Source: Rhodamnia argentea (Eukaryota; Streptophyta; Magnoliopsida; Myrtales; Myrtaceae). Taken from it: a stretch of 64,000 nucleotides of DNA. The position numbers and the translations under genes are program-made. Within the stretch, counting starts at the first letter, position 1. Every line of letters begins with the position of its first letter. Below the pieces are notes generated by a model, which made no database searches, was not told the DNA's origin, and saw nothing but the letters and a program-made list of their open reading frames with translations. Of this stretch, positions 4,785-48,680 are shown in pieces. The stretch spans positions 21,376,283 to 21,440,282 of the forward strand of contig NC_063156.1 of assembly GCF_020921035.1 (NCBI RefSeq), read 5' to 3'.

Positions 4785-5310
4785 GGCTGCGTTTGGTCGT
4801 CGGGATTTCTGGTCGGGATAGGATTGGATAGGATAGGATAAGAAATCTAGGGATTTGGCCATATCCTATCCATCATTTGGTGAACTACGGATTTAAAGTC
4901 GGATATTCTCATATCCTATCATATCATGCATTTGGTAGAAAGCGTATATCAATATAAAGGACATAAATGCCCTACGTGATGCTCATGAAATATTCCGATC
5001 TTATTACTATAAAAATAATGTTCTCATACACAAAAAAAAACATGAAAATATACACATTATATTAGATTTTCAAACCTCTTTGCAAAAAAAAAAAAATGAA
5101 AATAGAAACAAATAAAACAAGAAAGTTAGCTTTTATATGATGGATAAGAGAAATCCTATCCGACCTTATCCTACCCCCTCCCCTAGGATTTTTTTATCCG
5201 GGTTATATCCCCTCTATATCCGACATTATACTATCCGGGACACCTACTAAACACGGGATAGGATAAAACATATCCTATCCCGAGTTTTATACGGACGACC
5301 AAACGCAGCC
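4785..5310. mobile_element. Tourist/PIF-Harbinger-like MITE with TTA target duplication
   Basis: The left end GGCTGCGTTTGGTCGTC (4785-4801) is repeated as an exact inverted copy at the right end (5294-5310). Both ends are flanked by TTA (4782-4784 and 5311-5313). Three-base TTA/TAA duplications and a GGCTGCGTTTGG-type end are typical of Tourist-like MITEs mobilised by PIF/Harbinger transposases. The 526-bp interior has no coding capacity. It carries subterminal repeats of the word GGATAGGATA on the left and the inverse TATCCTATCC on the right. Confidence 0.85.
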
Positions 5311-8097
5311 TTACCGAATTTCAACACAGGCTTTTTGTTGACTAGGAAAAGGTTTTCTGTTGACTCGTTTTCTTAAGAGATCCAAACGCCGAAAAATGAG
5401 GAAAATATTTTTTCCGGGGAAAAAAATCGCGAAATAAACTAGTCCCGATGTTTTTTTTCCGTTGACTCATTTTCATATAATTGAAAAGGTACGTAAAATA
5501 TGTCTTTATTATGGAAATTCTATTCGTATGTCTCTCTCCATATCTCCCATCAGTATAATCCACGCTTAGAAAGAACCTTCGTGCTAAAAAAGTTTCACAA
5601 AAAAATCAATACTAGCTATAAGTGAAAAGAGGCTTGGGCATTATTAAGTAGCGTACATAATATTAATCTAAATAATGAACCAGATTCTCATGCCGGCTAA
5701 CGAATTATAATTCCCCACTTCCCAGTCCTTGCACTAATACTAAATTTTGAATGGTCGTGGAAAGATCCAGGTCGGCCTCCAGTATCAAGTGTGGAGAGAG
5801 AATGTGAAGGGATTCGTCTACAAAATCACGGAGATAAATATTTATTCGTACTTTCAAATTGCATTGATATGACTGTAATTTTCTCACCATAATTATTTGG
5901 GGTTACTAGATAAATTACCGAATGCATACGATGACCCGTATAGAATTTGATCAACATGAGAGAATTAACTGAATCAAGGACTTAAAAAAATTCACTAAAT
6001 CTGTCGAGAATTGTAGTTTTTTTTTTCTTTGTATGGAATAGCGGTGAGTATAAATTATGTATGAGACACGTTGCGCTCCGGTCTCATTGAATTCAAAACG
6101 CATGCTAATGACCTCTTCCTCTATGCTCATTTAAGTTGTATTCCGTCATTTTCACGTAGAAGACACTGCTGAAATACAACCAAAAGCACGGGAGAGATCG
6201 GGGTTGAATGTACCATTTAGACTCATCAGACGGATGAATCAGGTTGTCTTTAGGTTGGGTCATAAATGTTCCGTCCAGATATGCCCATTTAACCCATTTA
6301 TGACCATTTATTACAATGCAAATCTCGGAACACGTACTTGATCCTATACATACCCAACCTATAACCTACTGACCCATGTTCCTAAAACGTTTCCCTATGT
6401 AATCTAGTCTAGGAAAGCTCATACCCAATTTGTATTTCCCCTTTTTATAATCAAATCAATTACATCCAACCGATAACAGAGAAATTATCAAATGAAAGAA
6501 GGGTAACCATGATTCGCAAGTGATGAATGCTGTCCAATATGGCATTTCTCTCGTTTGACCAAATCGCTTACAGGCTGCGGCCGGTGACCCTCTCTCGGTT
6601 TTGTCGAGGCCTAGGCCCTTGCCTTTGATCAGCGGGGACACCGGCCCTCGCCGAGGTATGATCACCGATGTCCCAACCCTCCGGCCTAGTTTTTTTCTCT
6701 TTTTGTATTTTTTTTTTTAAGTTTTACACTTTTTTTCTTTTGGAGAAAGAAAAAAAAAAAAAAGAAAATGACAAAAATGTCGCTGACCATTAGGTGAATT
6801 CGACTTTTTTGAAACCGGCATGGCTACTTCAGGCCGACTTGGGATATTGCGGATTGCTGCTGAGTCCTTGGGGATCGGGTACTCATGTCGGGCGCCCGGG
6901 CCTAGGTCCATCAAGACAAGGCTTGGGACCTTGATGTACGTGCCCTCGCCTAGGTCCGCGACGCCTATTCCTAGGTCCTTTTTTCTATTTTTCTTTTATT
7001 TTTTTCTATTTTCCCCCTTTTCCCTCCGTCGGGGCTCGTCGATGGCTGGAGGAGGGAAAAAGGGGAAAAAAGAAAAGTAAAGGAAAAAAAGAGAAATTTT
7101 GAAAAAAAAATTGAAAAGTCTATCAACGTCAGGGCTGATTGTGTCATGTAGGATATAGTTAATGATGACTAGATCGCCACGTTAGCGATCTTTGGTCATA
7201 ATTGGCCGGAGGAATTAAATTGGCAAATTGTTAAAAAGTTTTGGACTAAATTGAAAATTCATCGAAAGTTTTGTGACTAAACTAACATAATTGAAAAATT
7301 GAGAACTATATTCGTAAGTTGCTAAAAGATTTAGGACTAAAATGACGCAATTGAAAAATTCAGAACTGAATTGAATGTTGTACAATAAACTTATTAATGT
7401 TTTAGACAGTTTTCCCTCAAGCTCTTGTGAGCCAATTGACGTGTTTTCCCGTTTGTTGTGTGGTTACTGCACATGGAACCGAAAGTGATTTTCTATTGTT
7501 TGGAGTTCTATTTATATTTTTTGTTATCAGCTTTAATATCAATATATTATACGTTGTGAGTGAACCTCTCGCCATTTTATGCTGAAGGAATATTCATAGC
7601 AATAGCAAATGTGGTGAAGATTATAGAAATCTTCCATGCAAAACTCAAGGCGCTCTACGTTTTGATGTGTTTGCGGTTATCCCAGAGTAATAATAGAGCT
7701 TACTTAGTTTCTTATAATCCACGGATTCAAGATAAAAATCGATAATCGCGATTTGTCGTTATTTAATTTTTTTTTTTCTATAACCTGATTTACCAAGCTT
7801 TCAATGTTCCTTTTGATGATATATATTCTGTTTGCTTTCTCCTAGCTAAGTTACTTATCCATGTTTTAAATCTCTAACTCCGGCCCAAAAATGAAAGGAA
7901 GAAGAAGAAAGAGGAAAAGAATATAATGTCAGGATGAGTGATGAAAATTGAATAATAGCAGGGACATGATCGAAGTGGCATCCTTGATGGGACAGCGCAG
8001 AATTTTGTTCCCTACGGTCTTTTTGGAGGAATCCTCCGAGTGCGGTTGCTTTTGCTTTTATAAAGGTGATGATACCTAATAGAAAAAAAAAAAAAGA
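5311..8097. repeat. Intergenic DNA including a GC-island repeat (about 6560-7410)
   Basis: About 6560-6960 is GC-rich (reiterated words like GGCCTAGGTCC), is followed by pyrimidine-rich then purine-rich tracts, and ends at about 7200-7400. The end carries several degenerate copies of a phrase of the type 'aaaaatttaggactaaattg'. The same design recurs at about 12720-13060, 50690-51335 and, as a fragment, 55720-55850. It looks like a dispersed non-autonomous repeat family. The reading frames inside it (for example 6456-6665 minus and 6820-7080 plus) are low-complexity and are not called. I see no gene between 5311 and 6560 or between 7410 and 8097. Confidence 0.5.
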
Positions 8098-8450
8098 TAT
8101 ATATAGCCTCTGAATTTTGATTTAATATACAATGCGATCTTCGAATTGTTAGTTTGTTTAATGTATCCCTGAATTTTTAGTATATGTTCAATTTAACCTT
8201 TGAACTATATACAATATTCGATGTGGTCCTTGATTTTGAGTTAATGGAAGGACAATATTGAACATTTTCATATAGTTTATGGACTACATTGAACATGTAT
8301 TAAAAGTTCGAGAATCACATTGAACAAATCAAAAGTTCAAGGATCACATTGCACATTTGTTAAAGTCTAGGGATCACATTGAATAAATTAAAAGTTCATG
8401 GACTAAATTGCATATTGGATCAAAGTTCGGAGACTATTTTTGTCGCTATT
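8098..8450. mobile_element. Foldback (long inverted-repeat) MITE-like element, copy 1
   Basis: The two halves are inverted copies. The left side reads TATAGCCTCTGAATTTTGAT onward, and the right end read in reverse gives AATAGTCTCCGAACTTTGAT onward. Each arm contains short tandem variants of a phrase like AAAAGTTCAAGGATCACATT. A short central spacer has the word TAATGGAAGG. A second diverged member with the same arms and centre lies at 26242-26668. There is no coding capacity. The exact ends and any target duplication are uncertain. Confidence 0.6.
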
Positions 8451-22949: not shown

Positions 22950-25859
22950 ATGAGAAGCAGTCAAATGTTTCATTTCCTGCTGTTCTTCAGTATACTTGGT
23001 GCTGTTCTTGATGTTTCTCTAGGAGATGATCCGTCGGGACCCTACTGGCTTCTAAGAGTCAAGGCACAACTGAATGATCCTTCTGGAGTTCTAAACAATT
23101 GGTCTCCAGAAGCTCATGTATGTGGATGGTACGGGGTCACATGTTCATACAACAGATCAAAGGTGGTGGGATTGAACTTGATGAATTCTGGGCTGTCAGG
23201 TCCAATCTCACCCGAATATGGTTTTCTCACTTCACTAGAGATGCTTGATTTATCGTCAAATTCCTTCACCGGCTCGATTCCTCCCGAGCTTTCAAAGCTC
23301 CAAAATTTGAAGTCACTCCTCCTTTATTCCAACTCCCTCTCCGGCGAGATACCTGCGGAATTAGGCCTGCTGAAAAAGTTGCAAGTCCTAAGAATAGGAG
23401 ATAACCTCTTAAGCGGCAAGATCATCCCGGATATCGGCAACTTGTCGGAGTTAAGAGTATTAGGCCTTGCCTATTGCCAATTCAATGGGAGTATTCCTCT
23501 TGAGATTGGAAATTTGAAGAACCTGATTTCTCTGGACTTGCAGAAGAGCTGTCTCAGCGGCCAGATTCCTCAAGAGATTAGCAGCTGCGAAGCGCTTGAA
23601 AACTTTGCAGCGTCCAACAACATGTTGGAAGGGGACATTACTTCTTGGGTGGGATCGCTGAAGAAACTCCAAGTTCTGAACTTGGCGAACAACAGCCTCA
23701 CTGGACCAATTCCAACTGAAATAGGTGGTCTCTCTAATTTGAGGTACTTAAATTTGCTCGGAAACAAGCTGATTGGGGAGATCCCTGGAGAGCTCGTTGG
23801 GCTGGTTCAGCTCGAAATGCTTGACTTATCGGAAAATAACCTCTCCGGGTCTATTAGCCTTTCTAGTACCGAATTGAAGAGCTTAAAAGTTCTGTTCTTA
23901 TCCGATAATATGTTGACGGGCGGACTGCCAAACAACTTCTGCTCGAGCAGCTCAAGCTTGAGACAGCTCATTCTCGCTCGTAATGAACTCTCCGGCAAAT
24001 TCCCCATGGAGTTAATGAACTGTTCCTCGCTCCAACAGCTAGATTTGTCAGATAACAACTTTGAGGGGTCCCTGCCATCGAGCCTCAACAGGCTACAGAA
24101 GCTCACCGATCTCCTTCTCAACAACAATAGCTTCACCGGAGTCCTACCTCCTGAGATCGGGAACATTAGCACCCTGGAAAATCTTTATCTCTTTGATAAC
24201 ATGATCACAGGTAGCTTACCAGAGCAACTCGGCAAGCTAGACAAGTTGAGCACCCTCTACCTGTATGACAACCGGATGACGGGAAGCATTCCTAGAGAGC
24301 TGACTGACTGCTCAAGCTTGACTGAAATCGATTTTTTTGGGAACCACTTTAGTGGGTCTATTCCCTCTACGATCGGGAAGCTAAAGAATCTGGTGGTGCT
24401 TCACCTGAGGCAGAATGAATTTTCAGGTCCGATCCCACCGAGTTTGGGATACTGTACGAAGCTTCAGCTTCTGGCCTTGGCCGATAATAAGCTCTCCGGA
24501 ACTATACCACCCACTTTCCAGTTTCTCTCGGAACTCAGCACGATCACACTGTACAATAACTCCTTGGAGGGTCCACTGCCTGAATCTTTCTCCCTTCTGA
24601 AGAGCTTGAGGAAAATCAACTTTTCTCATAATCGACTCGAAGGGACGATAACTGCCCTCTGCAGATTAAATCTGTTGACCGCGCTCGATCTTACAAACAA
24701 CAGCTTCTCAGGCCCCATCCCTTCCACACTGGGAATGTCATTGAATTTAACCCGTATCCGCCTTGCCCACAATCATCTCACTGGCAACATTCCTTCTCAG
24801 CTCGGCCAGCTCACCGAGCTCAGATTTCTGGACCTTTCTTTCAATAATTTGGATGGAAATGTGCCATCTCAGCTATCGAATTGTGGAAAACTTGAACACC
24901 TCCTACTTAGCAACAACAATTTCACAGGCACCGCACCCTCCTGGCTCGGGGGACTAGAAGAACTCGGGGAACTAGATCTCTCATCCAATGCATTACTAGG
25001 ATCAATACCGGGCGAGTTGGGAAATTGTTCAAAGCTCCTCAAGCTTTCCCTCCGTAGCAACAATCTCTCAGGAGTGATTCCACCGGAGATTGGAAGTCTA
25101 ATCGCTCTAAACGTCCTCGATTTGCAAAAGAACAATCTTACGGGCACGATTCCTTCCACAATTCAGCAATGCACAAAGCTTTTTGAACTTAGACTCTCAG
25201 AGAACTTCCTTACAGGTCCAATACCGTCCGAACTGGGACAGCTAACCGAATTGCAGGTGATCCTGGATCTGAGCAGGAACTCATTCTCGGGCGAGATCCC
25301 TTCTTCGCTCGGGAATATGGTGAAGCTAGAGAGGTTGAACTTGTCTTCCAATCAGCTTCAAGGAGAAGTTCCACCTTCCCTAGGAAAACTGACAAGCCTT
25401 CACATGCTGAACCTGTCAAACAATCATCTCCAGGGCCGACTTCCTCCAACTTTTTCAGGATTCCCACTCAGCTCTTTCATAGGAAACAAGGAGCTTTGCG
25501 GCCCACCATTAGCATTGTGCTCCTCAAAAGCAATGGAGAAGTCACTGTCCAAAGGTGAGGTCGCGGGGATCGTGGCAGCCATCGTCTTTACCTCAGCAGT
25601 GATATGCTTGGCAATGCTTTACATCATGATGAGAATCTGGTGCAACTGGCGGAGAGTCCTAATATCGAGCTCCGAGGGAAACATAGCCGAGCTCAAGAGA
25701 GAAGATATGTGGATCCATGGGAATGAAAAGAGAAGAAACAACGGCAACTACTGGAAGATGAACTCCTGGTTGGCGCCTTCGCACAATAAGCACCCCTCGA
25801 GCACGTGCATTTTCCAGCTCAAAATGGATACAGAAACTCCAGACAGAACATCGGTATGA
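22950..25859 (+). CDS. Leucine-rich repeat receptor-like protein with GSO1/GSO2-like ectodomain and no kinase
   Basis: A single exon encodes 969 residues. Residues 1-25 are a signal peptide. The LRR N-cap follows (LLRVKAQLNDPSGVLNNWS, then CGWYGVTC). From about residue 68 to 830 run roughly 30 plant-type LRRs (LxxLxLxxNxLxGxIPxxLGxL). An LRR C-cap ends with SFIGNKELCGPPLALC. A transmembrane helix lies at about 871-894 (VAGIVAAIVFTSAVICLAML). The cytosolic tail is only 75 residues, starts RIWCNWRR, and contains none of the kinase motifs. Order and wording of the repeats (for example LRIGDN, NMLEG, SLTGPIPTEIG, FFGNHFSGSIP, LHLRQNEFSGPIP) resemble the GSO1/GSO2 receptor kinases, which perceive CIF peptides in barrier formation. 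No kinase coding is visible in the 800 bases after the stop. It could be a natural receptor-like protein, a decoy or co-receptor, or a kinase-less derivative. Confidence 0.9.
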   Translation: MRSSQMFHFLLFFSILGAVLDVSLGDDPSGPYWLLRVKAQLNDPSGVLNNWSPEAHVCGWYGVTCSYNRSKVVGLNLMNSGLSGPISPEYGFLTSLEMLDLSSNSFTGSIPPELSKLQNLKSLLLYSNSLSGEIPAELGLLKKLQVLRIGDNLLSGKIIPDIGNLSELRVLGLAYCQFNGSIPLEIGNLKNLISLDLQKSCLSGQIPQEISSCEALENFAASNNMLEGDITSWVGSLKKLQVLNLANNSLTGPIPTEIGGLSNLRYLNLLGNKLIGEIPGELVGLVQLEMLDLSENNLSGSISLSSTELKSLKVLFLSDNMLTGGLPNNFCSSSSSLRQLILARNELSGKFPMELMNCSSLQQLDLSDNNFEGSLPSSLNRLQKLTDLLLNNNSFTGVLPPEIGNISTLENLYLFDNMITGSLPEQLGKLDKLSTLYLYDNRMTGSIPRELTDCSSLTEIDFFGNHFSGSIPSTIGKLKNLVVLHLRQNEFSGPIPPSLGYCTKLQLLALADNKLSGTIPPTFQFLSELSTITLYNNSLEGPLPESFSLLKSLRKINFSHNRLEGTITALCRLNLLTALDLTNNSFSGPIPSTLGMSLNLTRIRLAHNHLTGNIPSQLGQLTELRFLDLSFNNLDGNVPSQLSNCGKLEHLLLSNNNFTGTAPSWLGGLEELGELDLSSNALLGSIPGELGNCSKLLKLSLRSNNLSGVIPPEIGSLIALNVLDLQKNNLTGTIPSTIQQCTKLFELRLSENFLTGPIPSELGQLTELQVILDLSRNSFSGEIPSSLGNMVKLERLNLSSNQLQGEVPPSLGKLTSLHMLNLSNNHLQGRLPPTFSGFPLSSFIGNKELCGPPLALCSSKAMEKSLSKGEVAGIVAAIVFTSAVICLAMLYIMMRIWCNWRRVLISSSEGNIAELKREDMWIHGNEKRRNNGNYWKMNSWLAPSHNKHPSSTCIFQLKMDTETPDRTSV

Positions 25860-26241: not shown

Positions 26242-26668
26242 AGGAAAATGACAAAAAATAGTTCATGAATTTGGGCCTAATGTGTAATGTGGTCCATGAA
26301 CTTTTAGTTTGTTTAATGTGATTCCTGAATTTTAGCTCAATGTGCAATGCGATCCATAAACTTTTAATGTGTTCAATGTAATCCCTAGATTTTTTATACA
26401 TGTTCAATTTAGCCACCGGACCAATATTCAACGTTTTCCCCGATCTTAACTTAACGGAAGGGCTACACCGAACATTTTCAAATAGTCCAGGGACCGTATT
26501 GCACATATACCAAAAGTTTATTAACCACATTGAACAAATTAAAAGTTCAAATATGACATTGCACATTTGGAGTGAAGTTCGGGGATCATAATGAATAAAT
26601 TTAAAGTTCATGGATCACATTGCATGTTGGGCAAAAGTTCAGAGGTTATTTGTGCCATTATTTCTCGA
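26242..26668. mobile_element. Foldback (long inverted-repeat) MITE-like element, copy 2
   Basis: This is the same family as 8098-8450. The left arm reads AATAGTTCATGAATTTGGGC and the right arm in reverse reads AATAACCTCTGAACTTTTGC. Both arms contain tandem variants of 'aaagttcatggatcacattg'. The centre again has TTAACGGAAGG. It has no coding capacity; the 169-codon minus frame (26102-26611) is a by-product of the repeats. Confidence 0.6.
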
Positions 26669-38126: not shown

Positions 38127-39463
38127 TGTCGCGACCTTCAAAAAATAGACGGATTAATTTTCGGGCTAATGGATTATCAGGTTAATTAATTAACTAACCT
38201 AACTCGGACTCTCCCAAGTCCATACCAAATCGCAACTTAAGATTCAAATAATTAACATGCAACGTGTTTTGAATTGGAGTCGCCACTAATCATTTTCGGT
38301 AGGTTGATTAGAAACCTAAATAAAATAGCGGGAGAAAACTATCTTATTTCCGCGAACCGGAGATTTTGAATTCGGGGATTTGGTTACGTCAGATTTCTCT
38401 AACGCCCTTTCGGTACCATTTTCATGAAAAATATTTGATTTGGCAATTTTGATGGATTTTACTTGAAATTCAAAGATGCAATTTTTTTGGTTTTTTCTTC
38501 TTTTTTATGGGGATGTAAAACATTGAACTTTGTACGATATACACCATGGGTGATTTAGAAAGAAAGAAAACGCAGCCAATCACGAGTATTTACAGAAATA
38601 AATTAACATGTAATAATGCTAAAATTTGGAACACGTGGCATGTCTAAAATAAACAAACGAATGTTCACACCAAACGATTACATTTTTGTAGATCGAGATG
38701 GAAAGGATTACCTTCTATTACACAAAATCTTACTCACATACACGTTATAGTTCCCTTCAAGATCTCGGAGTTGGAAGAACGCGGCTGTCGTCGAAAATGG
38801 CAAGCAATGGCGTTGTTGGGTTGCGAGGGGCGAAATATGTGTCGGGACTCGTCGAAGATGATGCTCGACTAAAACACTTTTCTTCACTCTCGAATTTTCT
38901 CTTCCGATTTTTCTCAAGAACTCTCTTTTTCCTCTCTAAAAATTCCTCTCAAAAACTCTCTCAAAACTCTCTCAATTCTCTTCCACTCTTCCTAAAAAAA
39001 CTCTCTCAATTCTCTTCTACTCTCTCTCTCAATTCTCTTCCACTTCCCCCCTTTTATAGCCAAATTTCTTCATCATCTTCCCTTCTTCATCTTCTCTTCA
39101 TCATCTTCTCTTCATCACCTTCCCTTCATCATATTCATCTTCTCTTCTTCATCTTCCCTTCACCATCTTCCTTTCATTATCTTCCCTTCTTCATCTTCTC
39201 TTGGTATTTGCAATGCGTCCCTGAAGTTTCAAGTATTTGCACATACGGTCCCCGAAGTTTTAAGTATTTGCAATACAGTCCCCGAAGTTTCAAATCTTCT
39301 CGGTATATTTTTCCATCCCGTGCCTAGTCTAGACGCATGCTAAATTAAGTGTTCTCGCTTGCCCAATTATATGCCAATGCAATGTACGCTAAAAATAAAT
39401 ATATGAGATGATTTTTTTTATAATTTTTATGCAAAAAATAGATTAGTCAAAATTTAGGCGTCA
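38127..39463 (-). repeat. 3' LTR of the Ogre/Tat-like retrotransposon
   Basis: This 1337-bp direct repeat is nearly identical to 47096-48431. Read in element sense (minus) it starts TGACGCC and ends GTCGCGACA, so the ends are TG..CA. By eye I count four substitutions and three single-base indels against the other copy. It includes a GAAGATGAAGA-rich low-complexity tract and three tandem copies (about 28 bp) of a unit containing TATTTGCAATACGGTCCC near 39205-39290. Confidence 0.9.
39051..39058 (-). promoter_or_regulatory. TATA box in the 3' LTR
   Basis: Minus-strand TATAAAAG, in the context GGCTATAAAAGGGG. The identical site is at 48020-48027 in the other LTR. It supports the minus orientation deduced from gag. 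Confidence 0.65.
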
Positions 39464-39842
39464 ACTGGTGCCCCTCTTTGAGTGGAGGCTCGTAGAGGTT
39501 CCGCTCAAAGACAAAATTGAATCCTAAATTTTGACAAGTGCAAATTATGGATGAACTTTTTGGCGGGAGTTTTAATCCCATTTTTTATGTAATGAAGTGA
39601 TGCATGATATGCAAGACCGTAAATAACATGTGTCAAAACTTCTCATTTTTCATGTTAGAGAAACCCGCACATGGATCGCATACAAGAATACCTGTTTTAC
39701 CAAATTTCTCGTAAGCTAATGGTTCTCTTAATTTCCAAGCTTCTTTTTGCAGATGCAAGGATTTTAAGGTATCGGTGCCTTATCCGTTATCAGAGACTTC
39801 TCCCTAATGCAAGACAGCGCAAGATATGTGTGTCGTTTGAGA

Positions 39843-40294
39843 TCACAAGAGCTACGTCGTTGTGAGTCGAAAGAAGTGAAATCAAGTTCACAAGAGCTAC
39901 GTCGTTGTGAGTTGATTAAATGTCGAAATCGCCCAGTGCATATGTCTTCACGATTCGACAAAAGGGAATCAAAATCATAAGAGCTACGTCATTATGATTT
40001 GGTTTGGATCAAAACCATGGGTGCTTATGTCTTCATGATTTGATAAAGGAGCCGAAAATCATAAGAGCTATGTCATTATGAGCCGACTAAAGGTCAAGAT
40101 CACCAAGGCATACGTCTTCGTGATTCGAGACCGAAATCATAAGAGCTACGTCGTTATGATTTGATAAGATGTCAAGATCGCCAATGCATATGTCTTCACG
40201 ACCTGACGTAAGAGGCATACTGCCTCGAATTGAACAATGTTTGATAGGAGCACCATTGAATGGAATCGATAAGTACAAAAGGGGCATATTGCCC
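39843..40294. repeat. Tandem array of hairpins with covarying arms
   Basis: Type A hairpins have an 11-base loop GAGCTAYGTCR: 39843-39865 and 39888-39910 with arms TCACAA/TTGTGA; 39972-40000 and 40134-40162 with arms AAATCATAA/TTATGATTT; 40059-40081 with TCATAA/TTATGA. They alternate with type B hairpins, loop like CCANTGCATAYGTCTTC: 39921-39960, 40008-40044, 40092-40132 and 40171-40207. The A+B unit repeats four times at 75-87 bp spacing. Two short hairpins follow: GAGGCA-TAC-TGCCTC (40212-40226) and GGGCA-TAT-TGCCC (40282-40294), each followed by CGAATTGAA. Arm sequences differ between copies but stay complementary. The array lies near the 3' end of the retrotransposon interior. Confidence 0.8.
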
Positions 40295-43200
40295 GAATTG
40301 AATCATAACAACTATCATCGAAGAGTTGTTAATTTGAAAAGGGGTTCGGAAAACTTACCCGGGTTCTCCAAACGATTAATCAAGGAACGAAACAGATTGT
40401 CAGATCGCACCGGTAGGCATTTGCCAGCAAAACTTGCTCATTCAATAATCCTTGGATGAATTTCGAGACCTTGGGAGGGAACTCGAACATCGGGAATGTA
40501 TTACGTATCATAGAATGTCGAGGTAACATACACAAACATATTCAACAATGAGTATAATGCAATCACTCATACTATGGTTCATGCATAACCATTCGTCAAG
40601 TTTGCATTACCAATTTTGTCCAGGGAGGTTCTCACATGACGAATACCTCGAATGTGAGCTGAATGGGGGGACTTCAGTCCGAAAGGGCTTTCTCTCACTC
40701 TCGAGAAAAGCTATTTATCCTGTCTGCAGGATTCAAGAGAAATCACTCAATCTTTCCATCATCGCATTCGATAAGGATCCAAGTAATCTCGCAATTGATA
40801 CGACCGAGCCGATCCGGGAGGTCTTGATTAGGACCGTAATGAGAGCTAGGTCAAAGGTTTACAAAGGGGACTCCAGTTGAGTCAAGGCTGCTGAAATGAA
40901 TTTCTTCATCATCCGCTCCGCATTTACAAGTCAAGAGCCCCGCAAAAATGAGAGAGAAATAATCTTGCTCGAACTTCTTCGAGTGATGCTTAAAATCATT
41001 TAACTCTACGTTAACTCAAGTGCCATAATCAGAAGAGACTTTGGAGGGTTATAACGTAGGCTAGGATTGGGGACCGAGGAACGAAAATGCTCGTTTTGGC
41101 TCGAAATTAAATGAGAAGGGGCTTGACGTTGGTGATCATCGTTGACTAGTCACCGATCTTGGTCTTCCGGAAATGTCTTCGTAAAGAATTGAATGAGGGA
41201 TGGTAGTTTTCTACTGAAAATTGCACTTTGCAAACCGACTTCTTGGGGAGTCTTCTTCACAACAAGTGTCTGTCGAGGATTTGCAAGAGACACAATGTAA
41301 ACATGTACATGGAATTTACAACTTAACATGCAAAAATGTACATTCAAAATTCAGAAGTACTTTACAAATGAATGTGCATTGGCCTTACTTTTGGTAGGCA
41401 CTTTGCTTTTCCTATGCTTGAAATTTTCATATGAGATCGGCCTTTGCTTTTCTTACTCCCGACCCTCATTTTTCTTTTTTTCTTCTTTTTTTCGAGAAGA
41501 GATTTTTTTTTCTTTTTTCTTTGAGAGCTCTTCGACATCTCTCTATTTTTCTTTTTCTTTTTTTTTTTTTTTTTTTTTTCGAGAGCGGGCCCTTCTCCTT
41601 TAAGCTGAGTTTGCCTCTCCTTTTTTTTTTTTTTTACAATCCCATGATTTTGAACCAGGAATTACAGCAAGCATAAACATTTACAAAGAAAAATTATGTA
41701 AACATAAAAAAATGTAGCATACAAGAAATGAGTCCATTCGGGAATTCTCTGTTGACCCGACTATCTCCAATTCTAATCCTTGGGAATATGCTATCTTTAT
41801 CTTTGGAATGAGCAAATGATCACCAACAAGGGTTTAAGAAATGAATTTGCAGGCTCAAGTGGGCTATGCAAAGAATGAAGTGTATAGGATAGAGAAATGA
41901 ATGCTCTTCATCATCCTAAGGCACTTGAATTAAAATTCGAGTATAAATGCAAAGAAACACCCGAAGATTAATGTTAGTCCGAGGAAGAAAATTTCTAACC
42001 ATTTACCTCGTGTTGCTGCTGGAATTAACTCGTCTGGACCCCGATGTGGGGTGATTCTTGACAGGGGTAAAGAAATGAAACCACCGCTCAAAAGGGGTAA
42101 TCAATGGATCACCCGTAGTGTTTGGGATAGAGAACCGAATGCCTCTGTCATTTCGGCTATCGTACCTTTTGCGAGAAAACCTTTTACCTTGTGAAATGCG
42201 GAACTTAGCCATCGTTCAACTCTCCCGAAAAAATGGGACGTGTTTGGGAAAGGATTGCCTTTCATCATCCCGCCCTGCCCCATTCCGTACATTCGATGTA
42301 TCTTATGTAGTTCATGTTCCTTATTCAGAGTTGGTAAATTAAACATGAGGAACAATCATGCGCAAACTATGCAATGTATGAGTGTTTTTGAGCATATAAA
42401 ATGCAGCAACTTTTTATCTTGGTGGACAGAATTCGCAAGCACATAAGAAACTTCTTAGGGGCATGGATTGGGAGTTGCCCTCGCTCATGCAAATGAGTTG
42501 CAAAACTTCATTATCCGGTTCGAGACATGAGATTGTCAAAGGCTCCGGGAATTTCTTATTTCATTAATTTTTCAGGGAGAATGGATACTTCCCTATCCGG
42601 AAAGGCAGTGACCCCCGTAAAAATCAAAAGGGAAAGCGTCAATGTACGTTCTCATGTTCTAAACGAGTTGAAATGATACCGCTTTACCCTTGTACGAATT
42701 TCTTGTGAACTTTGAATTGAAAAGATCAACTCATCTGGATCGGATTGTATGTCCGGGATGTTATCTCTCCGGTTTTGTAACCATTTGGGCTGAGCTTCAA
42801 TCGGCATTGAACTGCGAAGTAAAAAGGTTTTTATTAATCTTTGTACATTGATGCCAAATCCCGGATCGAACCTCGGGACGCCTCGGACCACTTGTCATTC
42901 CCCCAACCACCAGGCCGTGGTGATGTTGGCGTCCACGGTTGGTTCGCTTTTTGCTATATTGTTCTCAAAACAGTTGGCAATCCCCTCTTTTGCTGGCCAT
43001 TCCAATGATCGATCGATTTTGTCTTGGATCATACACCAACGATCGTTGTTTGAGGATCCATAATCACTTGCTTCGGATCACAACTCGGGAGGTCTTTCAG
43101 CTCCGAACCGGCCGATCAAGGTGGTGGGCTCATCATCAAAGTAATCTTCTGATTTTTCGAGCAATTGATACTCGAATTGGGCGGTGTTACTTGCTAACAC

Positions 43201-43400
43201 CGGCGACGCATTTCCCACTTTGTTTTCGCCGTGAGCGGTCTAACTCCTTGAGCTTGAGCTTCCGCCGTTGCTCGGAAACTTGTAGGGATGATCAACCGGT
43301 CTATTGCTAGAACCACCAGCGGAAGGTTGGTATGGCCTGTATTCTTGATTGGGAAGTGGCCGGGTACCTTTTGCTCGATAGGTTTTCCCGGTATTGATCT
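40295..43400. other. Non-coding interior of the retrotransposon
   Basis: Where reverse transcriptase, RNase H and integrase would be expected, only short, domain-less frames occur on both strands. About 41460-41640 is T-rich with two long homopyrimidine tracts. It is read as degenerated or replaced retroelement sequence. Confidence 0.5.
42840..42950 (-). repeat. Possible tRNA-derived SINE-like insert
   Basis: On the minus strand a tRNA-like arrangement is visible: GCCTGGTGGTTGGGG (resembling a polymerase III A box) and, about 35 bases further, GAGGTTCGATCCGGG (B box GGTTCGATCC). I could not define ends, a tail or a target duplication. It could also be a chance resemblance within retroelement DNA. 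Confidence 0.3.
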
Positions 43401-43419
43401 TCCAATCAACTTTGGTCCG

Positions 43420-43700
43420 GTCGCCTTGATTTTTGCACTACCGGCTTAGCCGAAGGATCGATTGGCAAACAATGTTCGACAATGGAACGGTCAAGACCGG
43501 GCATATCCGCATAGGACCAAGGCGAAAATGTCCCGGTAATCCTTCGAGAGCTTAATCAAGCGCTCGATCATCTCTTTGGAAAGGTTTGCCCCGATCTTAA
43601 CTTCTTTAGGGTTTTCCGCATCGCCTAGGTTGACCGAGATAGTTTGTTCAACTGTCAATGGCTTGATCTCCTCATGTCGTTCGAAATCCCGACGAATTTC
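43420..43700 (-). pseudogene. Retroelement pol fragment (segment preceding reverse transcriptase), frameshifted
   Basis: The minus strand reads EEIKPLTVEQTISVNLGD, then SKEMIERLIKLSKDYRDIFA and, after a frame change, DMPGLDRSIVEHCLPIDPSA. This is the conserved run just upstream of the reverse transcriptase core in Ogre/Tat-type Gypsy elements. An extra T between the codons for Ala and Trp breaks the frame at about 43520. The core catalytic region does not follow. Confidence 0.6.
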
Positions 43701-44149
43701 CTCATAATCATCTTGGACTCATCTAGGTCGTATACTTCTAAATCCACTAGGTTTCCCTCCTCATGTATCCCCCGAAACATAAAGTAACAAAATCGAAAAA
43801 ACAAACAGGGTTTAATTGCGGTGTGATTTTTTTTTGAAGAACTTTATTTATTTTTGTTATTTTTTTTATTTTTATTTTTCAAAACCGTGGGACATGAATT
43901 CTTAAAGAAGCCCAACCCTCGGTTCTTACCATGATGACAAACTTGTTGGTCGTTGGTTATCGTCATCGGGTTGGTTTGGGATACTTCAACAAGATTCGAA
44001 AAATGGTGCAATTTTATTGATATGAAATTACATCTTCTAGGAAAGAAAATCCAAGAGTGCAAGACAGAATAGAAATCCAAATGCGATCCAAAACCTAAAG
44101 GAAACAGAAAATGTCACACGTAGGGGATTGCATAAACATAAAGATGTTA

Positions 44150-45757
44150 CTACGAATCTAAACCCTCCAGTGGATCATCACATATGGCATTAATGAATGA
44201 TTTGGAAGGTTTAGGCGCCAGGTAAGGTTCCTCCTTATGCGCTCCGTCTTCGAGATATAGCAAAGCAATGGTTACATCATCAAAACAACCGGCGATATCG
44301 AAGACTCCTTCATCCTTACTAGCACCAACCTGTCTGATTCCCAGCTCGAATACAGCATTAACTTTACCGGAATGATCCGGCAAAGGATTATTCTGGACAT
44401 TTGGCTGTTTGTTGCCTTGGAATGAGAATGCTTTAGAATCCGGGAGATCTTGAATCCGATGCTTCAAGACAAAACAGCCATCGGTGTCATGTCCAAGCTC
44501 CCCGCAAAGTGGTAATCACATTTCTTCGATGGATCATATCTCGGCAAGCTCAGACATCGGGTCGTAGAGGCTCGGAAGTCAGTAAACCTCTCTTACGCAG
44601 AACCGCAAGTACCTGCGACGGGGTTCCTAGTAGATGGGTAAACCGCCGAGGAGACCGTTGATTCCCTCTTTGTCGTTGCATGCCGAAATTAGCCGCCGCC
44701 GATTAGGAATGCATACGACGGCGTGCCCGGGTCGTGGGTTTTTGGCTGTAGGTCATGTTGACCTGTGGGGCCGACTCCTTGTCTTTCCTTACCACAAACC
44801 TCTTAGTCGTCATGGCGACATCACCGTACCAACCTTTCTTCATGCCGTTCTCGATTTCTTCAGCCATTGCGATGAGATGGCTGAATGACGTGGCAACGAG
44901 ATCCCAAAATTCGAGTTCTCATAAGCGGCGGCAGTGGTGGAAACAAACAATTTCATGAGTTCCCTTTCGGGAGGGACTGGTTTCAATTGAGATGCAACGT
45001 TCCTCCACCTAGTGGCATATTGCTTGATTGTTTCTTCCTTTTTCATCTCAAGCTGCTCAAGGTCCTCTCTCGGTGGTGAGCACGTCCAAGTTAAAGCTGA
45101 AATGTTTGATGAAAGCATTAGCTGCCTTCTCCCAATCATCCATCCGGTAGATCTCGTAGTCCGTATACCATCTCATGGCAGCTTCTTTTAAACTAGCCTG
45201 GAAGGTCCGAACCATTAAGGGACCGTTGGTCGCATGCTTATTCATTCTTGCCTGGTACATCCGGACGTGCTTGAACCGGGTTGGAAGTTCCATCATACTT
45301 CTCAAAGTCGGGCATCTTGAACTTCTCGGCACCGTGACCTTTGAAAAGACAGACAGGTCAATCCGGGGTATGTTGTGAGTCCCCTCAACCTCTCGGATCC
45401 TCCTGTTCCATTTGGGCCAACAGTTTGACCGTATCACCATTCAACCCGGGGCCCACGGTGGTTGGCTTGAGGGATTGGGACTACGGGCGGCGTGCTCGAG
45501 TTCACGCCCGTGATGATCACATCCTCTAGCGGCATTGTCGGATAGGGAGTAGCTTCTAGGGCTTTACCGACGTTGTCCGTAGGAGGAATTAGAGCAGGAA
45601 TGGTTAGCGGCGGGCTGGAGGTGGATGATTGAAGTTTGGCGGCAAAGGCGGCCATCATTTCCTCCATCTTTCGGGACATCATCCCTTCAAAGCGCTCGGT
45701 CAAGGAGCCAAGTTTCTCATCCAGGGCAGCACTAACGGTGGCGTTGATGTCGGCCAT
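44150..45757 (-). pseudogene. Retrotransposon gag, broken by frameshifts
   Basis: Gag proteins form the retroelement particle. The minus strand carries successive gag pieces in different frames. MADINATVSAALDEK with a coiled-coil-like start (45757-45434) comes first. Next is the capsid-like region with FQASLKEAAMRWYTDYE and WEKAANAFIKHFSFN (about 45440-45057). Then follows LEQLEMKKEETIKQYATRWR with VPPERELMKLFVSTT (about 45139-44840). A C-terminal piece lies at 44467-44150. The order is that of Ogre/Tat-type gag (ALRWY, W..L..AF..QY, QYA.RWR). At least two frame changes mean no full Gag can be read from this copy. Confidence 0.75.
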
Positions 45758-46539
45758 CCTTTTTGCTACCGATCGGGTGATATGTGGAGGATCCGTGATA
45801 AATTACCTGTACACAGTAACAAACCCAAAATGAGTACAGGAAGCAAGAATAGCGAGCCGGCCCATGGCATCCCTCTAGACTCAAACGAACAAAGTGATTA
45901 TGACCAAAGGATTGAAACATGTAATTTTCAGTTTATCCGCTTTTACGAAAAAATTCATATTAATTCGCACGTTGATCAAAACATGTCAAAATTTTACGAG
46001 CTTGTAGTTGAGAAGATGATGAACAACTTTTATGTTGGCCAATCGGACTAGAAATGCACGGGTCAAATCAGTTTAATGTGTTTTTCCAAAAAATCACATT
46101 CAGAAAACTGTTATAACCGCAGGTAGTTGAAAAAACGAAAGGCCATCTTAAATTATGAATTTAATTCTGAAATTTTGTAGGATATTAGTTGAAACATAGG
46201 TCTACAACTTTCATGTTTGGCACTTACTCAAAGCTCGATCGTAGAATTTAGTAAAAATCGCACAACAGGAATAAGTCAAATCAGAATTGAGGACAACCGA
46301 TGAAATTGTAAAAGCTGCGGAAGCAAAGTGCGAAATTGAAAATAAGACAATGAAACTTCTAAACAATCAACCTAAACCATGGAACGGCCCAAAATAAAAA
46401 TGAGATAACAGGGTACAAAAGACAAGAAATTACCTCTCATACGAAAAAAATGCCAATCACAAAGACATGCGCATGAATTATGAGTTTAAATCTTATTCTA
46501 TCTATCCAAAAGGCTTTTGCAAAGTGAAATGATGAACGA

Positions 46540-46640
46540 AACGACATGTCGCAGCCTCGCAAGACAGTCATCATGACTAGTCGCAACCTCGCGTACAATA
46601 GTCATGACTAGTCGGGTCCAATCACTTCGGCTTGGTTCGG
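46540..46640. repeat. Short direct repeat with palindromic core
   Basis: Two close copies of TCGCARCCTCGC followed by the palindromic AGTCATGACT and AGTCG occur between the primer-binding site and gag. Function unknown. Confidence 0.5.
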
Positions 46641-47074
46641 TCGACAAGGGCAATTATCATGCATCGTAGCCTCACGTGCATGAGAAAGACCCTTGAGCCA
46701 TTTTTTGGAAAAATTTTCGGGATTCAGATGGGATAACCTTTAGCGAAACCTTACCGCCAAGGTTAAAGAACCATTTAAATACCATCTTAAAACTATTAGT
46801 GTGACCCGGGTCCGGTCACGGGTTGTGTGCAGTGTAGTGCAAATACGATAAATCATGCACAACAATTAAAGGCAAACACCGCTTCAATGATTCAAAAGTT
46901 AAATCACAATTCCAATTCACCAAGCCCGCAAAACAAATGGTTAGCCGATCACTCCTCCCCTTATAACTCCCAATCTGCAAAAACATTTAACACCTAAGAA
47001 TGAGAATTCAACCAAAGTTTACCAAATCAATTGATTTCTTTTTCATGAAATTATCGGCCTAAGTCCTCTTTGGG

Positions 47075-47092
47075 TCCCCAGATGAGTCGCCA
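47075..47092 (-). other. Primer-binding-site-like sequence
   Basis: Minus strand TGGCGACTCATCTGGGGA begins four bases inside the 5' LTR end. It begins TGG, as expected for pairing with the CCA end of a tRNA. Ogre-type elements are reported to use an arginine tRNA; I cannot confirm the tRNA here. Confidence 0.55.
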
Positions 47093-47095
47093 AGC

Positions 47096-48431
47096 TGTCG
47101 CGACCTTCAAAAAATAGACGGATTAATTTTCGGGCTAATGGATTATCAGGTTAATTAATTAACTAACCTAACTCGGACTCTCCCAAGTCCATACCAAATC
47201 GCAACTTAAGATTCAAATAATTAACATGCAACGTGTTTTGAATTGGAGTCGCCACTAATCATTTTCGGTAGGTTGATTAGAAACCTAAATAAAATAGCGG
47301 GAGAAAACTATCTTATTTCCGCGAACCGGAGATTTTGAATTCGGGGATTTGGTTACGTCAGATTTCTCTAACGCCCTTTCGGTACCATTTTCATGAAAAA
47401 TATTTGATTTGGCAATTTTGATGGATTTTACTTGAAATTCAAAGATGCAATTTTTTTGGTTTTTTCTTCTTTTTTATGGGGATGTAAAACATTGAACTTT
47501 GTACGATATACACCATGGGTGATTTAGAAAGAAAGAAAACGCAGCCAATCACGAGTATTTACAGAAATAAATTAACATGTAATAATGCTAAAATTTGGAA
47601 CACGTGGCATGTCTAAAATAAACAAACGAATGTTCACACCAAACGATTACATTTTTGTAGATCGAGATGGAAAGGATTACCTTCTATTACACAAAATCTT
47701 ACTCACATACACGTTATAGTTCCCTTCAAGATCTCGGAGCTGGAAGAACGCGGCTGTCGTCGAAAATGGCAAGCAATGGCGTTGTTGGGTTGCGAGGGGC
47801 GAAATATGTGTCGGGACTCGTCGAAGATGATGCTCGACTAAAACACTTTTCTTCACTCTCGAATTTTCTCTTCTGATTTTTCTCAAGAACTCTCTTTTTC
47901 CTCTCTAAAAATTCCTCTCAAAAACTCTCTCAAAACTCTCTCAATTCTCTTCCACTCTTCCTAAAAAAACTCTCTCAATTCTCTTCTACTCTCTCTCTCA
48001 ATTCTCTTCCACTTCCCCCCTTTTATAGCCAAATTTCTTCATCATCTTCCCTTCTTCATCTTCTCTTCATCATCTTCTCTTCATCACCTTCCCTTCATCA
48101 TATTCATCTTCTCTTCTTCATCTTCCCTTCACCATCTTCCTTTCATTATCTTCCCTTCTTCATCTTCTCTTGGTATTTGCAATGCAGTCCCCGAAGTTTC
48201 AAGTATTTGCAATACGGTCCCCGAAGTTTTAAGTATTTGCAATACAGTCCCTGAAGTTTCAAATCTTCTCGGTATATTTTTCCATCCCGTGCCTAGTCTA
48301 GACGCATGCTAAATTAAGTGTTCTGCTTGCCCAATTATATGCCAATGCAATGTACGCTAAAAATAAATATATGAGATGATTTTTTTTATAATTTTTATGC
48401 AAAAAATAGATTAGTCAAAATTTAGGCGTCA
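47096..48431 (-). repeat. 5' LTR of the Ogre/Tat-like retrotransposon
   Basis: A 1336-bp copy of 38127-39463. Seen differences include C at 47740 (T at 38771), T at 47874 (C at 38905) and small changes in the 28-bp tandem units near 48180-48260. A minus-strand TATA box (TATAAAAG) is at 48020-48027. Confidence 0.9.
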
Positions 48432-48680
48432 ACGGATGGCCAGCCATCACTTGAGACAAGGCACATGTGAAAAGGAAGGGGAAAAAAAAGAACAAAAAAG
48501 AAAAAAATTCAATAAATCTAAATGATGAAATTACCATTTTTCAAGCCCTTCTTTAAAATAATGAGAACATTTCATGCATTTATTTGAAACGATATTTATT
48601 TCATATCCTCATTTGAGAAAATGAGAGCACTTCAATTCCTTATTTGAAATTTTCCTTAATTTATTTATCGATACTTCGTT

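Follow-up and report, generated by a model that had tools for sequence, protein, structure and literature searches.

Copy-specific pairing in a hairpin array upstream of the 3' LTR of a probable Tat-type retrotransposon from Rhodamnia argentea

Introduction

Do the repeats of a retrotransposon array fold as hairpins whose two arms have stayed complementary beyond what shared descent of the repeats would give, and if so, what keeps them paired? This question is raised by the window analysed here, a 64,000-nucleotide stretch of Rhodamnia argentea DNA in which alternating hairpins with matched arm changes had been predicted from the letters of the sequence. Macas et al. reportedly described, in 2009, tandem repeats located between pol and the 3' LTR in Tat, Ogre and Retand elements. 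Papers given below by PMC number are cited from portions of their texts. In Tat-type elements, tandem arrays that follow the coding region are described there as common and as giving rise to satellites in primary constrictions (PMC7004042), and tandem arrays are reported for about half of young Retand elements, their origin and function being called unknown (PMC11963269).

Results

The host element

The array belongs to a 10.3-kb sequence on the minus strand (38127-48433), with an interior of 7.63 kb between a 3' LTR at 38127..39465 and its 1.34-kb partner, the 5' LTR, at 47096..48433. The two LTRs are 99.5% identical, with 4 mismatches and 3 gap openings, and GATGG is present at both outer ends of the element, the right end showing 1 to 3 additional nucleotides according to the LTR start chosen. 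This target duplication, together with near-identical LTRs around an interior, identifies the sequence as an LTR retrotransposon. A primer-binding-site-like TGGCGACTCATCTGGGGA was recognized by eye at 47075..47092 on the minus strand, 3 nt inside the right (5') LTR, and a polypurine-tract-like AAAGAGGGG, also by eye and on the minus strand, at 39471..39479, just inside the left (3') LTR. Because these two features sit at the inner LTR edges in this arrangement, the element is read on the minus strand and the array therefore lies upstream of the 3' LTR, the monomer block starting at 39832, 367 bp from it. The location originally predicted, inside an LTR retrotransposon and before its 3' LTR, is borne out by the LTRs, primer site and purine tract of this minus-strand element. 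One LTR also contains a period-31 unit in three tandem copies (39204-39293), adjoined by TTC-rich repeats at 39066-39202, and a matching repeat is found at 48173-48259 in the other.

Broken gag-like frames were located at 44150..45802 on the minus strand, where homology covers 45057-45440 only and the other pieces were placed by eye against the relative. The 45057-45440 piece had one relative, from Rhodamnia argentea itself, at 61% identity, and the Pfam gag match fell under the cut-off (E 0.15). No open reading frame of at least 150 amino acids was found in the element interior, the longest stop-to-stop frame found being 140 amino acids, and piece 43491-43718 had no homologue at E 0.001. Among the 15 of 53 pieces of at least 55 amino acids that were run against Pfam, none contained a reverse transcriptase or archaeal-type RNase H domain, and none matched the TRP28 domain (PF04195) of the antisense open reading frame that is a Retand trait. 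The element is young and apparently coding-defective, and the combination of near-identical LTRs with a broken coding region indicates that it likely moves in trans. Its 3' region also includes a T-rich tract at 41466-41600, A-rich on the element strand, and an imperfect inverted pair of 37 nt (41934-41970 and 43142-43178; 76% complementary) spans 1.2 kb of the element.

The element is probably a Tat-type member of Ty3/gypsy, a placement based on its primer site and the position of its repeats, not on a reverse transcriptase tree. The primer site, TGGCGACTC, is other than tRNA-Met, and the element shows the Tat-type feature of tandem repeats that lie after the coding region and before the 3' LTR. 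We take a TGGCGACTC primer site to be typical of Tat. Non-chromoviruses do without a tRNA-Met primer according to the portion of PMC6317226 cited here. Elsewhere in the window, a 969-amino-acid open reading frame at 22950-25859 on the plus strand, with LRRNT_2 and many leucine-rich repeats, is a candidate receptor-like protein, and the related segments 8110-8444 and 26250-26651 (74% direct, 79% inverted) may, at a guess, represent an old inverted-repeat transposon family.

Anatomy of the array

Nine monomers were aligned on the element strand, and their ends were taken from the alignment columns. In order of coordinates, all on the minus strand, they are hairpins A1 (39835..39872), A2 (39880..39917), B1 (39921..39960), A3 (39967..40004), B2 (40007..40045), A4 (40051..40088), B3 (40092..40130), A5 (40129..40166) and B4 (40170..40208). 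Both classes are built alike: the core GACRTA(W)GC is flanked by a 5' arm and a 3' arm, the latter usually longer by one base. The hairpins are about 38-40 nt long, and the alignment places neighbours between a 2-nt overlap and a 7-nt gap. The stem continues outward past a bulge, and of the 13 pairs that columns 5-17 could make with 30-44 each unit has 9-12, none of the nine having all 13. Cores are spaced 36-45 bp apart (45, 43, 44, 41, 43, 42, 36 and 42), and A-to-A distances are 45, 87, 84 and 78; the units of 75-87 bp that were originally described correspond to three of these four A-to-A intervals and fail for the first.

The hairpin sequences quoted in the original prediction were present where it had put them, and the array proved to be real and larger than described. 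Arms TCACAA/TTGTGA are found in two A copies and TCATAA/TTATGA in three, as it stated, and its B arms AATCG/CGATT and ATCAC/GTGAT are those of B1 and B3. The A loop it gave fits all five copies; the B loop, GCATAYGTCTTC, fits three of four, B2 having GCTTATGTCTTC. Two short trailing hairpins had also been noticed, and both are present on the plus-strand side of the nine monomers: C1 (GAGGCA/TGCCTC) at 40212..40226 and C2 (GGGCA/TGCCC) at 40282..40294. A third in the same region, hairpin D at 40306..40331, with a perfect 8-bp stem, had been missed, as had the continuation of the stems beyond the bulge and the layout common to A and B. No strand was assigned to these three, which lie outside the nine-unit model; considered as additional monomers, they were unmatched by that model with filters off and E up to 10.

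Homology between classes A and B is likely, judging from their joint alignment, and is not proven. A model built from A only placed B2 (E 0.91) and B3 (E 1.2) in the right register, and B1 and B4 were absent at E up to 10. A search of the window for further array copies with the nine-unit model, default filters and E up to 10 gave four matches, all within the array, and Rfam gave no match at E up to 1 in 39400-41600. A protein-coding array was considered and rejected: the A-to-A spacings are multiples of three, but the nine-core spacings (43, 44, 41 and 43 among them) are not, open frames end inside the array, and a 74-amino-acid piece over part of it has no relative. Kissing-loop dimerisation through the B core found no support as a conserved feature, the palindrome CATATG being present in B1 and B4 only (CATAAG in B2, CGTATG in B3).

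Across the nine units, mean pairwise identity was 0.87 in the core, 0.75 in the loop, 0.71 in the inner arms, 0.56 in the outer arms and 0.36 in the linkers, the last value being somewhat lowered by the position of linker columns at the alignment edges. Within class A the values were 0.91 (loop), 0.90 (inner arms) and 0.51 (outer arms), and within class B they were 0.82, 0.68 and 0.67. The proposal of a constant loop on a changing stem is thus upheld over nine units insofar as the core exceeds arms and linkers, and is qualified in class A, where it is mainly the outer arms that change.

Copy-specific pairing of arms

If shared ancestry alone were responsible, the 5' arm of a monomer should pair equally well with the 3' arm of another copy. 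On the element strand, in windows picked after the hairpins were known, the outer arms paired with their own partners at a mean of -3.27 kcal/mol versus -1.44 kcal/mol with others, and 34 of 100000 permutations were as good. The corresponding plus-strand means were -3.47 and -1.85 kcal/mol (1198 of 100000). Within class A on the element strand, 3 of 120 swaps of full arms and 12-13 of 120 swaps of outer arms were as good, and within class B 1 of 24 in every one of three windows; the plus-strand counts were 5-18 of 120 for A and 3-7 of 24 for B. When both classes were combined and swaps kept within class, the element strand gave 3, 3 and 4 of 2880 for the long arms, rising to 36-40 of 2880 in three short windows, and the plus strand gave 18-376 of 2880, the figures set against each other for the two strands being 3 and 26 of 2880. 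When each monomer was left out in turn, the own arms were equalled by 1-3 of 576 or 720 swaps for the element strand and by 1-23 for the plus strand. Pairing of arms is therefore copy-specific, and this, like the anatomy, location and orientation of the array, was observed directly.

Covariation of stem pairs

On the element strand, 98 of the 117 pair cells (13 pairs in nine units) were paired and 19 were unpaired, with 10 GU cells, and two-sided changes occupied 12 cells in 6 of the 13 pairs. Sliding the 3' partners lowered pairing to 22-47%. Shuffles across all units gave a mean of 89.7 paired cells, and none of 5000 reached 98; the observed two-sided cells were matched in 2 of 5000 and the number of pairs showing a two-sided change anywhere in 302 of 5000. 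Shuffled within classes, the same three measures were matched in 16, 65 and 2395 of 5000. Read on the plus strand, the array had 95 paired and 14 two-sided cells, and the corresponding counts per 5000 were 0, 0 and 227 over all units and 2, 17 and 1785 within classes. The paired cells and two-sided cells are exceptional, then, and the number of pairs showing any double change is not. Further pair types were matched in 349 of 500 shuffles. Class A taken alone gave 15 of 500 for paired cells and 69 of 500 for two-sided cells, and class B alone 44 and 10 of 500.

Relatedness of the monomers was further addressed by neutral simulation on their UPGMA tree, starting from a perfect hairpin and run 2000 times at each of four scales. 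The observed paired and two-sided values were reached jointly in none of the 8000 runs (0 of 2000 per scale). Considered one at a time, the observed number of paired cells was reached in 734, 133, 21 and 4 of 2000 at arm identities of 0.77, 0.70, 0.66 and 0.62, and that of two-sided cells in 0, 0, 1 and 1 of 2000; the observed arm identity was 0.63, as compared with the simulated range of 0.62-0.77. Single pairs also ran through the series AU/GU/GC and UA/UG/CG, which fits stepwise change by way of wobble pairs. Given the swaps, shuffles and neutral simulation, covariation among the array repeats is not chance and stands above a null that allows for relatedness, at one locus whose repeats are not independent. 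The original claim that matched arm changes exceed shared ancestry was corroborated by all three approaches. These data come from nine monomers of one element copy.

Folding and strand

Seven perfect hairpins of at least 6 bp were counted in 39843-40330 (488 bp), where 1000 shuffles gave 1.4 on average and never more than 6. This is a weak test, as hairpin A copies make up four of the seven and one (40035-40062) pairs across two units, and seven perfect hairpins also occur in windows starting at 5001-5041 and at 40261-40301, the latter mostly past the array. The region 5001-5531 is a separate place in the sequence where 490-bp windows hold seven perfect short hairpins. With the pairing span limited to 45, local folding gave z scores of -3.9 on the minus strand and -4.8 on the plus strand, and none of 200 shuffles was as low on either. 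With no span limit the values were -3.1 on the minus strand (0 of 200 shuffles) and -2.4 on the plus strand (2 of 200). In the unlimited prediction for the element strand, six of the nine local hairpins nearly disappear and neighbouring units pair instead, so local folding in the course of transcription, or the help of a protein, would be required for a beads-on-a-string form.

The strand on which pairing matters was not singled out by these measures. Wobble balance (10 GU versus 7 AC cells, p 0.31) points to neither strand. The swap tests favour the element strand, whereas the within-class shuffles favour the plus strand (2 versus 16 of 5000), and on several measures of pairing and folding the plus strand is equal to or better than the element strand.

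Discussion

Arrays in this position are already known for Tat-type elements, and what appears new here is that the monomers are covarying hairpins. The Tat, Ogre and Retand repeats occupy the same element region and likewise consist of family-specific tandem monomers (PMC7004042, PMC11963269). As described in the cited portions they are plain tandem monomers, and the terms "hairpin" and "secondary structure" occur zero times in the portion of PMC11963269 cited. The present array also went unreported when Tandem Repeats Finder was run with a minimum score of 30. Palindromic repeated motifs of Sireviruses resemble it in comprising many dyad-symmetric units in non-coding parts of LTR retrotransposons; Sireviruses, however, are Ty1/copia elements in whose motifs the arms have a conserved CGG-CCG signature, whereas here the core is most conserved and the arms covary (PMC2829016, in part). 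In the open-paper literature, searched by titles and the starts of abstracts, no description was found of covarying hairpin monomers or of a Tat-type array as hairpins. The exact array pattern had no match in viral contigs or in prokaryote contigs, where plant DNA is not expected.

The copy-specific pairing around a nearly constant core suggests, for this one element copy, that a folded shape has been kept for a purpose. A selected array of single-stranded hairpins is the reading we favour, at a confidence somewhat short of even; selection on the pairing, single-stranded RNA as the relevant form and the existence of a binding partner are what we infer. Matched arm changes do not establish selection as their cause, because template switching also yields them (PMC8794818, in part). 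Mutation might accordingly have done the work: a nascent strand would fold back during replication or reverse transcription and one arm would template the other, so that matched changes arise in one step in an otherwise ordinary, hypervariable Tat-type 3' tandem repeat derived from a palindromic unit. We consider this unlikely, while taking it seriously. Hairpins can arise and persist through template switching (PMC8794818, in part), Tat-lineage elements commonly have tandem repeats at this place, for which an origin by abnormal strand transfer has been proposed (PMC7004042, in part), and the covariation is equally strong when read as DNA on either strand. Arm templating should nevertheless leave perfect stems, yet of the 117 cells 19 lack a pair and 10 have GU; the two-sided changes are scattered single pairs, several of them with wobble forms; and templating of arms does not account for the core as the most conserved part.

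Two further explanations place the relevant structure in DNA. The units could be double-stranded sites for a transcription factor, bZIP-like or otherwise dyad-binding, that controls the element or a Retand-like antisense gene. The numerous palindromic motifs of Sireviruses, for which a role as transcriptional cis-elements has been proposed (PMC2829016, in part), and antisense open reading frames between pol and the 3' LTR of Retand (PMC11963269, in part) provide precedents, and some units here have TGACGT-type cores. An array of ACGT-core bZIP sites had been offered as a rival from the start and has lost ground, since ACGT is kept in only five of nine cores and the other four have ACAT. Symmetric sites would also be expected to keep their arms and vary their spacer, whereas the asymmetric core is the most conserved part over nine units, and no antisense domain appeared in the pieces tested (15 of 53). 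We regard such sites as improbable. Cruciforms, or single-stranded DNA hairpins that form in reverse transcription or replication and affect strand transfer or expansion to satellites, seem to us more improbable still. Pairing and folding are equally strong on the plus strand, and arrays of this kind seed satellites in other plants (PMC7004042, in part), but swapping arms gives the better result for the element strand (34 versus 1198 of 100000; 3 versus 26 of 2880), the stems are short and AT-rich for cruciforms, and no expanded array was seen in the 64,000-nt window.

Under the favoured reading of a selected hairpin array, the monomers would make up a structured part of the 3' untranslated region in an LTR retrotransposon that inserted recently and is coding-defective. 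The element RNA would present many copies of one loop, with the core GACRUA(W)GC, on often bulged stems, and the stem sequence would drift while pairing was largely retained. A putative partner protein may read the loop and need a stem, though not an exact stem sequence. Tandem hairpin arrays bound by coat protein are familiar, for example the phage operator hairpins used in tandem. By analogy of working, and not of membership, those arrays may be compared with this one in repeating a constant loop on a sequence-tolerant stem. The likeliest partner would be supplied by a helper element, for instance as its Gag, and would package or carry the RNA in trans. That helper Gag packages the defective RNA through multivalent binding is a rather unlikely proposal when taken by itself, and roles in export or stability, which the original prediction listed beside packaging and dimerisation, are alternatives to it within the hairpin-array reading.

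A wider and decidedly doubtful extension may be offered for the family. The hypervariable 3' tandem repeats of Tat-type elements, at least in the family of this element, might be RNA hairpin arrays whose loops are bound many times over by helper Gag or a host protein. Divergent, self-complementary stems would prevent recombination between copies while keeping the shape, and a coding-dead element could compete for packaging by the number of its loops. Should the monomers prove to be hairpins whose stems are selected and whose core stays constant, it would become possible to test what reads the loop and whether the array determines which defective copies are mobilised.
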